A DNA stretch of 64,000 bases from Thermoprotei archaeon (GTDB lineage Archaea > Thermoproteota > Thermoprotei > Thermoproteales > B15-G16), in the NCBI GenBank assembly GCA_003649205.1, contig QMRC01000002.1, positions 208,770 through 272,769 of the forward strand, given 5' to 3'. Shown piece by piece: positions 4,295 through 63,936 of the stretch. Each line of letters opens with the position of its first letter. Positions within the stretch are counted from its first letter, which is position 1. Under the pieces are notes generated by a model. That model did not search any database and was not told the DNA's origin. It worked only from the letters and a program-made list of their open reading frames with translations. Position numbers and translations under genes: made by a program.

Positions 4295-4344
4295 GTGATG
4301 AACCCACCCTTGACTGTACTCATGATGAAACTGTCTCACACTGA
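4295..4344 (+). ncRNA. box C/D guide sRNA
   Basis: The architecture is regular: C box GTGATGA (4295-4301), 12-nt spacer, D' box CTGT (4314-4317), 4-nt gap, C' box ATGATGA (4322-4328), 12-nt spacer, D box CTGA (4341-4344). Two 12-nt spacers between perfect boxes is the standard archaeal dual-guide form. The second guide, AACTGTCTCACA, is complementary to GUGAGACAGUU, which I recall as a universally conserved 23S rRNA stretch upstream of the sarcin-ricin loop. It lies in the gap between radA and the next gene. Confidence 0.85.
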
Positions 4345-7348: not shown

Positions 7349-8770
7349 GTGGTCTTCTCTAGGTACCAGATGTTTACGACATTTCATGAACTAGCAGATT
7401 GTGTAGAGGATGCTGTATGGCGTTTAAAGGGGAGAACTCTTGCTGTTTTCTTCAATCTCTGTCTAGATTCAATACATAGAGTTTCAGAGGATACCCTACG
7501 TAATTTAGAGCTGAGTTCTATTGAAAATAGATGTGGTAGTGTAGATGAGGTTGTGTCTACAGCGCATGAAGTAGTTAAGCGAGGTGTTGTGGAGTCGCTA
7601 ACGGATATCACATACTGCCTCCTTTACTCTATTGTGTTGGGTAGGAGTTTCGAAGTTATCTTACCGGATCCAACTATGAGTAAAATGCTGAGTGAGAAAG
7701 TGAGTAACTATACACTTTCTCTAGGTGGTGTATGCGGATTAGCATCTCTCACCCTACCTAGGCTCGGTTGTAGAGTAATTCTACCAGTAACAACTCCTAA
7801 TCCTACGGTAGTGAACTATTTGAAACATAGTAGCTTAGTTGAAGTTCTCTACTATGAGGATATACTCCATACAGTAGCTAGTGAAGTTGCTCCGTACTTT
7901 CTACATTGGGTCTTTGAGATAGAGACAGGTCTCAAGGTGAGGTTTAAATCATCAATAATAGTGAGTAGAGAATGCTGTAGGTTTATTGCGTCATGTGATT
8001 ACATGACACTTAATTTTCCACTAAATGTGGTGAGCAAATTTGTGAATTACCTCTTTGAAAGACGGGGCCTCGACGCTACCGTTGTTTCTGGATTTCAAGT
8101 ACTTAATAGAGCACTCGATCCAGAGGTCATGAGTAAGCTACGTACTCTACTCAAGCTAATTACTGATTTCTCTCACTCATCTAGATCACATATACATATT
8201 GAGCTAGCTTACTGTAGCGACTTCGAGGTGCTTAAGTATGTAGTGAAAGCATTACCAGATATCGTGTGTGGTATCGGATTTAATGAAGAGGAGTTATCTG
8301 AGGTAGCTAAGTGTATCGGACTCAATTATGGTCAGGACTTCACTACAATGCTGATTGATGTTGCAAGTTCTTTTCTCGAGGGTAACGTACTATATGTCAC
8401 GGTTCACTCACCACACTTTGTGATTTCGGTATCGAGGAGTAAAGAACTAGCTAAATACCTCACTACAGCGGCGGCAGTAGGTAACTTCGGAGTTGCTCTC
8501 CTCAATAAACCTGGTAACCCAAGTGAAGTTCTTACCTATTGTTATAACAAGGGTTCTTACTATATCGAGAAGTTGCGCAGTGTAGTTGAAGGTCTACGTA
8601 GATTAGGTTTCTCGCACATAGGCTCCGGTATCTGGGTAAAGGGAGACACCTACGTATCTACGTACCTCTGCATGAATGTACCACTTGGAAGAAGTGTTGG
8701 TAGAGGTGATACATTTGCCGTCTTTGAGGCAATTGCTTTAAGTGAGCTACTGCATGGAAGTCGTAGGTGA
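7349..8770 (+). CDS. ADP-dependent sugar kinase (phosphofructokinase/glucokinase family)
   Basis: The C-terminal motif SVGRGDTFAVFEAIALSELL matches the catalytic GxGD segment of ADP-dependent kinases, and the segment HIHIELAYCSDFEVLKYVV followed by GIGFNEEEL matches the family's substrate and metal region. Length 473 is usual. The enzyme would phosphorylate fructose-6-phosphate or glucose with ADP in a modified Embden-Meyerhof pathway; which sugar is used cannot be read here. Start is GTG 7349, with ATG 7370 as an alternative. Its TGA stop (8768-8770) lies inside the C box of a downstream guide RNA. Confidence 0.75.
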   Translation: MVFSRYQMFTTFHELADCVEDAVWRLKGRTLAVFFNLCLDSIHRVSEDTLRNLELSSIENRCGSVDEVVSTAHEVVKRGVVESLTDITYCLLYSIVLGRSFEVILPDPTMSKMLSEKVSNYTLSLGGVCGLASLTLPRLGCRVILPVTTPNPTVVNYLKHSSLVEVLYYEDILHTVASEVAPYFLHWVFEIETGLKVRFKSSIIVSRECCRFIASCDYMTLNFPLNVVSKFVNYLFERRGLDATVVSGFQVLNRALDPEVMSKLRTLLKLITDFSHSSRSHIHIELAYCSDFEVLKYVVKALPDIVCGIGFNEEELSEVAKCIGLNYGQDFTTMLIDVASSFLEGNVLYVTVHSPHFVISVSRSKELAKYLTTAAAVGNFGVALLNKPGNPSEVLTYCYNKGSYYIEKLRSVVEGLRRLGFSHIGSGIWVKGDTYVSTYLCMNVPLGRSVGRGDTFAVFEAIALSELLHGSRR

Positions 8771-8815
8771 TGAGTGGGACCTGCACAGATCGATGACGAA
8801 GTTTAACTTCTCTGA
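8767..8815 (+). ncRNA. box C/D guide sRNA overlapping a stop codon
   Basis: C box GTGATGA (8767-8773) includes the TGA stop of the upstream kinase gene. Then a 12-nt spacer, D'-like CAGA (8786-8789) directly joined to C'-like TCGATGA (8790-8796), a 15-nt spacer, and D box CTGA (8812-8815). The internal string CAGATCGATGA and the 12/15 spacing are identical in the candidate at 10221, which is what convinces me. The D' box is not canonical. Confidence 0.55.
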
Positions 8816-10220: not shown

Positions 10221-10269
10221 GTGATGAGGACGCCCTTTACAGATCGATGAAGAGGGCCTTAATCACTGA
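10221..10269 (+). ncRNA. box C/D guide sRNA (CAGATCGATGA type)
   Basis: C box GTGATGA (10221-10227), 12-nt spacer, CAGA joined to TCGATGA (10240-10250), 15-nt spacer, D box CTGA (10266-10269). The inner motif and both spacer lengths equal those of the RNA at 8767 while the guide sequences differ, as expected for members of one guide RNA class. It fills the 100-base gap between two leftward genes and would be transcribed against them. Confidence 0.6.
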
Positions 10270-18186: not shown

Positions 18187-18236
18187 TCAGCTCGCCAGCT
18201 CGCAATCACAGTTCATCAGATAGGTAAACTCATCAC
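18187..18236 (-). ncRNA. box C/D guide sRNA
   Basis: Read on the minus strand: C box GTGATGA (18236-18230), 10-nt spacer, D' CTGA (18219-18216), 6-nt gap, C' GTGATTG (two mismatches), 12-nt spacer, D CTGA (18190-18187). It begins one base after the tatD stop and is antisense to any read-through from that gene. Confidence 0.5.
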
Positions 18237-41013: not shown

Positions 41014-41289
41014 ATGACCTCTCTCGCACCTAAAATTGATCACAGTAAGTGCATCGGGTGTGGTATCTGCTTCTTCGTCTGTCCCACTAATCCCAAGGTA
41101 TTTCAACCCTGTAGAGGATTGTCTTGGGTTGTTCATCCTGAAGCCTGTACAGGATGTGGACGCTGTGTCAAGTACTGCCCAGTACACGCAATAGAGCTAG
41201 TACCTCTTGAGCATGCAGGACCAAAACTACCAAGAGACTTCATAGGAGAAGTTGTTATAGGGAAGTTAATCGGGAAAGTGAAGCAGTGA
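41014..41289 (+). CDS. 2[4Fe-4S] ferredoxin
   Basis: Two clusters are clear: CIGCGICFFVCPTNP and CTGCGRCVKYCP, separated by about 25 residues. Length 91. GGAGGT lies six bases before ATG 41014; the reading frame is open further upstream through tRNA-Pro, but that extension is an artefact. Likely a general low-potential electron carrier for enzymes such as the GAPOR-like protein. Its TGA stop (41287-41289) lies inside the C box of a guide RNA. Confidence 0.9.
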   Translation: MTSLAPKIDHSKCIGCGICFFVCPTNPKVFQPCRGLSWVVHPEACTGCGRCVKYCPVHAIELVPLEHAGPKLPRDFIGEVVIGKLIGKVKQ

Positions 41290-41335
41290 TGAGGAGTACC
41301 CTCGCCAGATAGGTGAAGAGTAGCCCAGTAGCTGA
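41286..41335 (+). ncRNA. box C/D guide sRNA overlapping a stop codon
   Basis: C box GTGATGA (41286-41292) contains the ferredoxin stop codon. Then a 13-nt spacer, CAGA (41306-41309), C'-like TAGGTGA (41310-41316), a 15-nt spacer and D box CTGA (41332-41335). The layout follows the RNAs at 8767 and 10221, although C' is degenerate. Confidence 0.45.
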
Positions 41336-43321: not shown

Positions 43322-43376
43322 GTGATGAGAACCACCGGAGCTTAGTTTCTAGGTGCTGAGAGAGTCCCGCGCCTGA
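43322..43376 (+). ncRNA. box C/D guide sRNA
   Basis: C box GTGATGA (43322-43328), 12-nt spacer, weak D' CTTA (43341-43344), 8-nt gap, C' GTGCTGA (one mismatch, 43353-43359), 13-nt spacer, D CTGA (43373-43376). It lies between two divergent genes. Confidence 0.6.
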
Positions 43377-49015: not shown

Positions 49016-49064
49016 TCAGAAGCAAGAGGCTTCATCAACATTCAGTAGTCGAGTTGATCATCAT
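49016..49064 (-). ncRNA. box C/D guide sRNA
   Basis: On the minus strand: C ATGATGA (49064-49058), 12-nt spacer, D' CTGA (49045-49042), 3-nt gap, C' TTGATGA (49038-49032), 12-nt spacer, D CTGA (49019-49016). All boxes are canonical and both spacers are 12 nt. TATA-like GATTTATC lies about 40 bases upstream. Confidence 0.8.
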
Positions 49065-54247: not shown

Positions 54248-54372
54248 CTACATGTGGCCACTGGCTCCGCCGCCTCCTCATTCAGCCCCGAGAGAGGGGA
54301 TGTCGGAGACGGCTCAGGTCTACCTAGGTGAAGCCCCTTGATATACTTAACCTAAGTCTGAGAGGTAGGAGG

Positions 54373-54381: not shown

Positions 54382-54396
54382 GCTGAGAAATTGGTG

Positions 54397-54436
54397 AGGT
54401 CGCTTCATCCCAACCCAATTGGGGAGTCGGCGACCT
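54397..54436 (+). ncRNA. structured RNA candidate
   Basis: AGGTCGC pairs with GCGACCT (seven perfect pairs). Inside is a 5x6 internal loop (TTCAT / GAGTCG) and an upper hairpin CCCAA-CCCAA-TTGGG. This stem-pocket-stem outline resembles an H/ACA RNA, but I see no ACA box and no kink-turn. Confidence 0.4.
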
Positions 54437-54465
54437 AGCCGCCATGACTAAGTTCGAGTAAGGGG

Positions 54466-54477: not shown

Positions 54478-54513
54478 CCGTAGGTTGAGTAGAGTAGGAT
54501 ATTGCAAGGGGCC

Positions 54514-54564
54514 GGGGCTCACCTTCATTGACTCCCAGAAGGGAGCCTCAGGTGAGTGAACCCC
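54514..54564 (+). ncRNA. structured RNA candidate
   Basis: GGGG-C-TCACCT...AGGTGAG...CCCC forms nested stems of four and seven base pairs, enclosing loop TCATTGA / CCTC and the hairpin CTCCC-AGAA-GGGAG. It mirrors the outline of the RNA at 54397. Assignment is open: H/ACA-like, another small RNA, or a regulatory leader. Confidence 0.4.
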
Positions 54565-54624
54565 ACCGAGAATTTCCTCGTGCTCTACTGATCTTAAAAC
54601 TGTATCTACTTCTCTAGCTATGGC

Positions 54625-54678
54625 TCATGGGAGGTGCGTGTCATCACCTACCTCAGGTACCGTGAGGTTCTTCATCGC
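54625..54678 (-). ncRNA. box C/D guide sRNA
   Basis: On the minus strand: C GCGATGA (54678-54672), 15-nt spacer, D' CTGA (54656-54653), 5-nt gap, C' GTGATGA (54647-54641), 12-nt spacer, D-like ATGA (54628-54625). Only the D box deviates by one base. First in map order of a set of three. Confidence 0.6.
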
Positions 54679-54720
54679 CATAACTCACAGTGATGCTGGG
54701 GTAAATTATTGTTTCTCAGA

Positions 54721-54771
54721 TCAGAAGAGGCTAGCCTACATCACTTCCTCAGCCCGTATAAGATTCATCAC
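54721..54771 (-). ncRNA. box C/D guide sRNA
   Basis: On the minus strand: C GTGATGA (54771-54765), 12-nt spacer, D' CTGA (54752-54749), 4-nt gap, C' GTGATGT (54744-54738), 13-nt spacer, D CTGA (54724-54721). TATA-like GTTTAAGAC lies 25-35 bases upstream. Confidence 0.8.
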
Positions 54772-54822
54772 CTCACTCACCTAGGTGTATCAATAGTCTT
54801 AAACATAGCGTCACTACAGCAT

Positions 54823-54879
54823 TCAGCAGGGGTGCGTTATCTTCATAGGGAATCCGTTAACTCCCGGCGGTCTCATCAC
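54823..54879 (-). ncRNA. box C/D guide sRNA
   Basis: On the minus strand: C GTGATGA (54879-54873), 12-nt guide GACCGCCGGGAG, weak D' (TTAA), C'-like TATGA, and D CTGA (54826-54823). GTATTTAGG lies about 30 bases upstream at the TATA distance. Box D' and C' are poor, so only one guide may be active. Confidence 0.5.
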
Positions 54880-54944
54880 TATTAATACGGTTCATACTAG
54901 ACAGCCTAAATACCTGAGCCTAAGTCACTACACAGGTGATTAAC

Positions 54945-55481
54945 TTGGTCACCGTATGTGTAGCATCTAGAAATCCAGTGAAAATAAGGGGTACTGAGAG
55001 AGCGTTCAGGAAGATACTTGGTGTAGATGTGGAGGTGATACCTATTGAGGTAAGTACCTCAGTAAGACAACCAATCTCGATAGATCAAGTCATTAAGTGT
55101 GCAATTGAGAGAGCAGAGAGGGCACGTGAAGCACATACATGCGACTTTGCTGTTGGAGTTGAGGCAGGTATATGGATTGTGGAGGTACGAGGGTATGGAC
55201 AGATACCTATTAACACACACGTAGCTGCAGTATTGACTAAGGATGATACGCTATCACTAGGTATAGGGCCTTCATTCCCCATACCCGAGGACATGTACAG
55301 TATGATAACTACTCACCATAAGGAATTGAGTAAAGTTGTTGAGGAGGTACTCGGTGTACGTGACATAGGAAGAGACATAGGGCTAGTAGGTATCCTTTCA
55401 GGAGGTAAAGTGAAGAGAGAAGACTTAGTCTACTACGCTGTGGCCATGGCATTGCTAGGTATCACGAGTAGGTACTACTGA
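54945..55481 (+). CDS. inosine/xanthosine triphosphatase (DUF84/YjjX family)
   Basis: Family wording: VCVASRNPVKIRGTERAFRKIL, IDQVIKCAIERAERA, FAVGVEAGIWI, GPSFPIPEDM and GLVGILSGGKVKREDLVYYAVAMAL. The enzyme removes damaged ITP and XTP from the nucleotide pool. TTG 54945 has GGTGA five bases upstream; GTG 54936 is an alternative. Length about 178. Confidence 0.88.
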   Translation: MVTVCVASRNPVKIRGTERAFRKILGVDVEVIPIEVSTSVRQPISIDQVIKCAIERAERAREAHTCDFAVGVEAGIWIVEVRGYGQIPINTHVAAVLTKDDTLSLGIGPSFPIPEDMYSMITTHHKELSKVVEEVLGVRDIGRDIGLVGILSGGKVKREDLVYYAVAMALLGITSRYY

Positions 55482-63883: not shown

Positions 63884-63936
63884 GTGATGACTAACTGGGC
63901 CGGCCTTGATTGGTGATGTGTACCCGCCCCCTCTGA
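63884..63936 (+). ncRNA. box C/D guide sRNA
   Basis: C GTGATGA (63884-63890), 15-nt spacer, D'-like TTGA (63906-63909), 3-nt gap, C' GTGATGT (63913-63919), 13-nt spacer, D CTGA (63933-63936). The upstream TATA box is at the right distance. Confidence 0.7.

Follow-up and report, generated by a model that had tools for sequence, protein, structure and literature searches.

Three C/D-box sRNA genes arranged in tandem, which very probably guide 2'-O-methylation of rRNA, were identified on the minus strand of the window (i.e., the whole 64,000-nt stretch that was analyzed, positions 208770 to 272769 of contig C2). The window belongs to a 2.07-Mb draft genome of 31 contigs from a hot-spring-type archaeon, with 93.8% completeness and 4.2% estimated contamination; the closest relatives used for comparison share only its order. 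C/D-box guide RNAs direct an enzyme to rRNA nucleotides for methylation. Using a scan that scores the boxes and their spacing, we recovered all three leftward C/D guide RNA candidates that the original prediction had placed within positions 54625 to 54879. The scores were 29.5, 37.5, and 30.1 for sRNAs A, B, and C, respectively, and each candidate had the four boxes (C, D', C', and D) in order with near-canonical spacing in a head-to-tail arrangement. The array is genuine and of an ordinary type, consisting of further C/D guides of a known kind. Taken singly, it amounts to three more methylation guides; the interest lies chiefly in how large the whole guide set of the genome is and how it is arranged.

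sRNA A (54823 to 54879) comprises a C box (GTGATGA, 54873 to 54879), a 16-nt D' guide (54857 to 54872), a D' box (CGGA, 54853 to 54856), a C' box (ATGAAGA, 54840 to 54846), a D guide (54827 to 54839), and a D box (CTGA, 54823 to 54826). Its degenerate, nonconsensus D' box and the length of its D' guide are its deviations. The cleanest boxes of the three, and the second-best score in the window, belong to sRNA B (54721 to 54771). There, the C box (GTGATGA, 54765 to 54771) is followed by the D' guide ATCTTATACGGG (54753 to 54764), D' box (CTGA, 54749 to 54752), C' box (GTGATGT, 54738 to 54744), D guide (54725 to 54737), and D box (CTGA, 54721 to 54724). For sRNA C (about 54619 to 54682; boxes at 54625 to 54675), the scan had taken GCGATGA (54672 to 54678) as the C box and scored the gene as 54625 to 54678. 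The better reading is ATGAAGA (54669 to 54675), a frequent C' box form in this genome, followed by the D' guide ACCTCACGGTAC (54657 to 54668), D' box (CTGA, 54653 to 54656), C' box (GTGATGA, 54641 to 54647), D guide CACGCACCTCCC (54629 to 54640), and a nonconsensus D box (ATGA, 54625 to 54628). With this reading, the guides are exactly 12 and 12 nt, and the gene is closed by a clear 6-bp stem (TATGGC/GCCATA, 54677 to 54682 with 54619 to 54624). The stem adjoins a three-base bulge, matching the requirement of a kink-turn, and the fold of sRNA C is better than those of shuffled sequences (z = -2.15). Such a stem is absent in sRNAs A and B and in most sRNAs of the genome.

Because the 16S and 23S genes are absent from the assembly (Rfam LSU and SSU search), targets were sought in the rRNAs of relatives within the order (six 23S and four 16S sequences). 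For the 65 best C/D genes on contigs C1 and C2, an uninterrupted pairing of at least 10 bp that included the fifth position from D or D' was found for 32 of 130 guides, whereas shuffled guides gave 6.3 and reverse-complemented guides gave 6, which indicates that the guide set is aimed at rRNA. As targets, 26 tRNAs of the genome were no better than rRNA. In all six relatives, the D' guide of sRNA C forms 11 perfect pairs with 23S GTACCGTGAGG, and a site within this sequence is the most likely target of sRNA C; GTACCGTGAGG(T) is predicted in the 23S rRNA of its own lineage. The same guide also forms 12 bp, including one G:U pair, with 16S GTGCCGTGAGGT in three of four relatives, and the D guide forms 8 bp with 16S GGAGGTGC, near the GTGCCGTGAGGT site. 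sRNA A probably guides the 23S site in CAGGGGTGC, to which its D guide pairs over 9 bp in three relatives (with an extra G:U pair in two); the prediction for its own lineage is CAGGGGTGC(GTT). An alternative 12-nt D' guide of sRNA A with a TTAA box, which would pair over 10 bp with a conserved site in 23S (ATCCCGGCGGTAG), was dropped, because TTAA is too distant from CUGA to be relied on. With its guides, stem, 23S match, and Rfam match (see below), sRNA C is the best supported of the three.

In each RNA, the C/D and C'/D' motifs would fold into a kink-turn and a k-loop bound by L7Ae, which Nop5 and fibrillarin would join on each predicted guide RNA. The complex is predicted to 2'-O-methylate rRNA at the nucleotide that pairs with the fifth guide base counted upstream from D or D'. 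A fibrillarin gene is encoded in the same genome (G000:C1:50992-51669; 345.7 bits). The boxes, their spacing, the sRNA C stem, the complementarity, the TATA-like element of sRNA A, and the fibrillarin gene are read directly in the sequence; expression, RNP assembly, methylation, and transcription units are inferred.

The full scan covered C1 and C2 (680 kb, about a third of the genome) and yielded 63 C/D candidates at scores of at least 28, with 20 on C1 (357 kb; 0.2 expected) and 43 on C2 (323 kb; 0.33 expected). Eight further strong candidates (scores of at least 29) bring the window, together with the array, to eleven in 64 kb. They lie on the plus strand at 4295 to 4344, 8767 to 8815, 10221 to 10269, 41286 to 41335, 43322 to 43376, and 63884 to 63936, and on the minus strand at 18187 to 18236 and 49016 to 49064. 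Scaling by length or by the genome-wide pattern count gave an estimate of 198 to 223 C/D genes for the genome. The genome thus appears to hold about 200 of these genes, more than any published archaeal count found; the published maxima are 128 for Ignicoccus hospitalis and 127 for Methanopyrus kandleri (PMC4644070). A wide pattern matched 147 times in this genome (control, 5), the most among 250 Thermoproteota genomes, followed by three genomes of genus g7 with 92 to 111 matches; this is not a ranking of gene numbers, because the pattern is biased toward lineages whose boxes match the consensus and detects almost nothing in Pyrobaculum. Four g7 drafts with 92 to 111 matches (G019, G021, G025, and G033; 1.4 to 1.8 Mb) are likely to be guide-rich as well. 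With the same scanner, 200 kb of a relative (G022) gave eight candidates at scores of at least 24, which scales to about 97. This relative is of Pyrobaculum size and may be P. oguniense, published with 83 predicted C/D genes, and the scanner is therefore not grossly overcounting. Two positions on another contig (G000:C3:43232 and C3:248167) carry an identical C/D stretch (TGATGAAGCAACTAGGGGCTGATTGGTGATG), i.e., a duplicated guide gene.

Clustering of guide RNA genes had been described in the original prediction as not the rule in crenarchaea, a statement that is only partly right. According to a review of a six-species 2017 study (PMC7994747), clusters of two or three genes account for a significant share of the C/D genes in archaea. 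On C1 and C2, we counted 13 neighboring C/D pairs within 150 nt (6 in the same orientation and 7 in opposite orientations), compared with 1.1 expected for uniform placement and 3.7 for placement in noncoding DNA only, and 6 triplets within 300 nt. Clustering is thus genome-wide here, and the array is no exception. About nine C/D candidates on both strands were found within 3 kb at G000:C2:283118-286158. Convergent pairs with abutting ends were also observed (C2:43182/43233 and C2:283912/283961, both 0 nt apart, and C1:28857/28918, 6 nt apart); in both 0-nt pairs, the D boxes join as a palindrome (CTGATCAG).

Promoters were evaluated using a TATA-like matrix trained on other C/D genes, with sRNAs A, B, and C excluded from the fit. 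It detected a TATA-like element about 28 to 36 nt ahead of the C box. Of these other C/D genes, 48% exceeded the noncoding 90th percentile, and 5% exceeded the genome-wide 90th percentile when the interval was shifted upstream, both fractions being somewhat inflated because fitting and testing used one set of genes. Two of the three array genes had been predicted to carry TATA-like boxes of their own. This holds for sRNA A, for which GGTATTTA (54907 to 54914, minus strand; 35 to 28 nt upstream of the C box) ranks in the top 1.5% of noncoding windows, and sRNA A therefore probably has a promoter. The elements upstream of sRNAs B and C are weak, AT-rich stretches (GCTATGTTTAAGA, 54797 to 54809, and ATAATTTA, 54702 to 54709, respectively, both on the minus strand) that rank at about the top 12%. 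sRNA A would probably be transcribed from its own promoter; sRNAs B and C may each have a weak promoter, or they may arise from read-through transcripts that are then trimmed. For the guide set as a whole, we see an even chance that it is the largest known C/D repertoire among archaea (about 200 to 225 genes), mostly intergenic, with own promoters and with mixed-orientation clusters that include this array, in which case the rRNA would carry about twice the 2'-O-methylation of any archaeon counted so far. The lineage would be a useful system for following guide RNA genes as they multiply, relocate, and acquire new guides, and for finding out what load of ribose methylation one ribosome can bear.

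The boxes are short, and in the window only tRNAs passed the Rfam gathering thresholds, with C/D families below their gathering scores, so that a chance occurrence of box-like motifs between genes has to be considered. At permissive thresholds, the best matches of sRNA B were sR12, snoPyro_CD, and sR1, all far below the cutoff, and that of sRNA C was sR42 (RF01127; 22.7 bits, E = 0.0071), whose membership was rejected for sRNA C because the gathering score is 38 bits. Order-1 Markov controls of the same composition, however, gave 0.25 matches at scores of at least 24 per 64 kb and 0.33 at scores of at least 28 per 323 kb, and the 43 candidates seen per 323 kb at the score level of the array, the enrichment of guide-rRNA pairing over shuffles, and the stem of sRNA C make a chance origin extremely improbable. 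For sRNA B, no convincing target was found in the 23S and 16S rRNAs of the relatives, and the matches of its two guides were often equalled by shuffled guides. Its D' guide forms at most 7 contiguous pairs with the rRNA of relatives, and its D guide forms 9 in one relative only, possibly within an intron. Such poor pairing is consistent with only sRNA C, and perhaps sRNA A, being active guides, with sRNA B as an orphan guide or relic. We consider this unlikely: decay would erode the boxes, yet those of sRNA B are the cleanest, and its rRNA target may differ in its own lineage. A conserved 23S motif (CCCGTAGAAGAC, six relatives) fits the D' guide of sRNA B apart from the last base and a single internal mismatch, and CCCGTATAAGA(T) is predicted at this place in the 23S rRNA of its own lineage.

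With all three genes read as guides, their transcription as one polycistronic precursor from the TATA element of sRNA A, processed into three RNAs, is a serious possibility to which we give somewhat less than even odds. The genes share a strand, the spacers are only 51 and 42 nt, and the strongest TATA-like element lies upstream of sRNA A alone; moreover, the review describes di- and tricistronic C/D clusters in archaea and maturation that requires only the internal boxes (PMC7994747). AT-rich elements nonetheless occur at the usual distance before sRNAs B and C too, and the other close neighbors in the genome are on opposite strands as often as on the same strand (7 versus 6), so that closeness of neighbors does not reflect operons.

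Near the three tandem C/D genes, three plus-strand hairpins (54255 to 54325, 54395 to 54440, and 54505 to 54575) have an internal loop and share TCAT...CCC, and a repeated TATA-like stretch lies ahead of two of them (54338 and 54466). These could be H/ACA-like guides. Their match to Pab91 (19.9 bits) is far below the Rfam cutoff, their fold z scores are only -0.3 to -1.7, and a rough search of rRNA for pseudouridine targets of the three hairpins found nothing.

On its other side, sRNA A is divergent from a DUF84/NTPase_I-T gene (54936 to 55481, plus strand; Pfam PF01931, 141 bits), with 56 nt between them. We compared 29 DUF84 loci from the order, 8 of which were from genus g4. One C/D RNA was divergent from the DUF84 gene, 35 to 43 nt upstream, in all eight g4 loci (L004, L007, L009, L011, L016, L020, L028, and L030), and no C/D RNA was found at the DUF84 gene in the other genera among the 29 loci at the score used. 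The g4 gene occupies the same divergent place as sRNA A, but it is one gene rather than three, and its guides differ, with a D guide that pairs over 10 bp with 16S AATTGGAGTC. sRNAs B and C had no counterpart at the eight g4 loci; synteny of the cluster in relatives, which had been proposed as a check, thus extends in g4 to the place of sRNA A and not to its two neighbors. The DUF84 site is either an old site with rewritten guides or an intergenic region that two lineages came to use independently, and the different guides in the two lineages would allow guide turnover to be followed at one locus. A BLASTN search of the array against 30 relatives gave no match. The D' guide-plus-box pattern of sRNA C had no match in 397 other Thermoproteota genomes, and that of sRNA B occurred in Thermoproteota genomes only at chance level; conservation of the guides therefore lends no support.

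The array resembles known archaeal C/D-box sRNAs, such as Pyrococcus sR42 (RF01127) and snoPyro_CD (RF00095), in having RTGATGA and CTGA boxes twice, guides of about 12 nt, and lengths of 50 to 65 nt, whereas it scores too low for the Rfam gathering thresholds (22.7 against 38 bits for sR42). Its closest likeness to sR42 is a core, UCACGGUAC, common to the D' guide of sRNA C and the Pyrococcus RNA. Compared with the sR42 consensus, the D' box of sRNA C lies one base closer to this core; the predicted site would therefore be the nucleotide adjacent to that of sR42, and the second guide is different. As in the archaeal clusters described in the review (PMC7994747), the clustering here is short-range and involves two or three C/D genes. 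The same source reports a TATA-like motif in only 20% of archaeal C/D genes, most of which overlap open reading frames (ORFs); in this genome, in contrast, 58 of 65 C/D genes lie outside large ORFs and 48% exceed the 90th percentile for a TATA-like element, as judged by scoring methods that are not identical to those of the published work.
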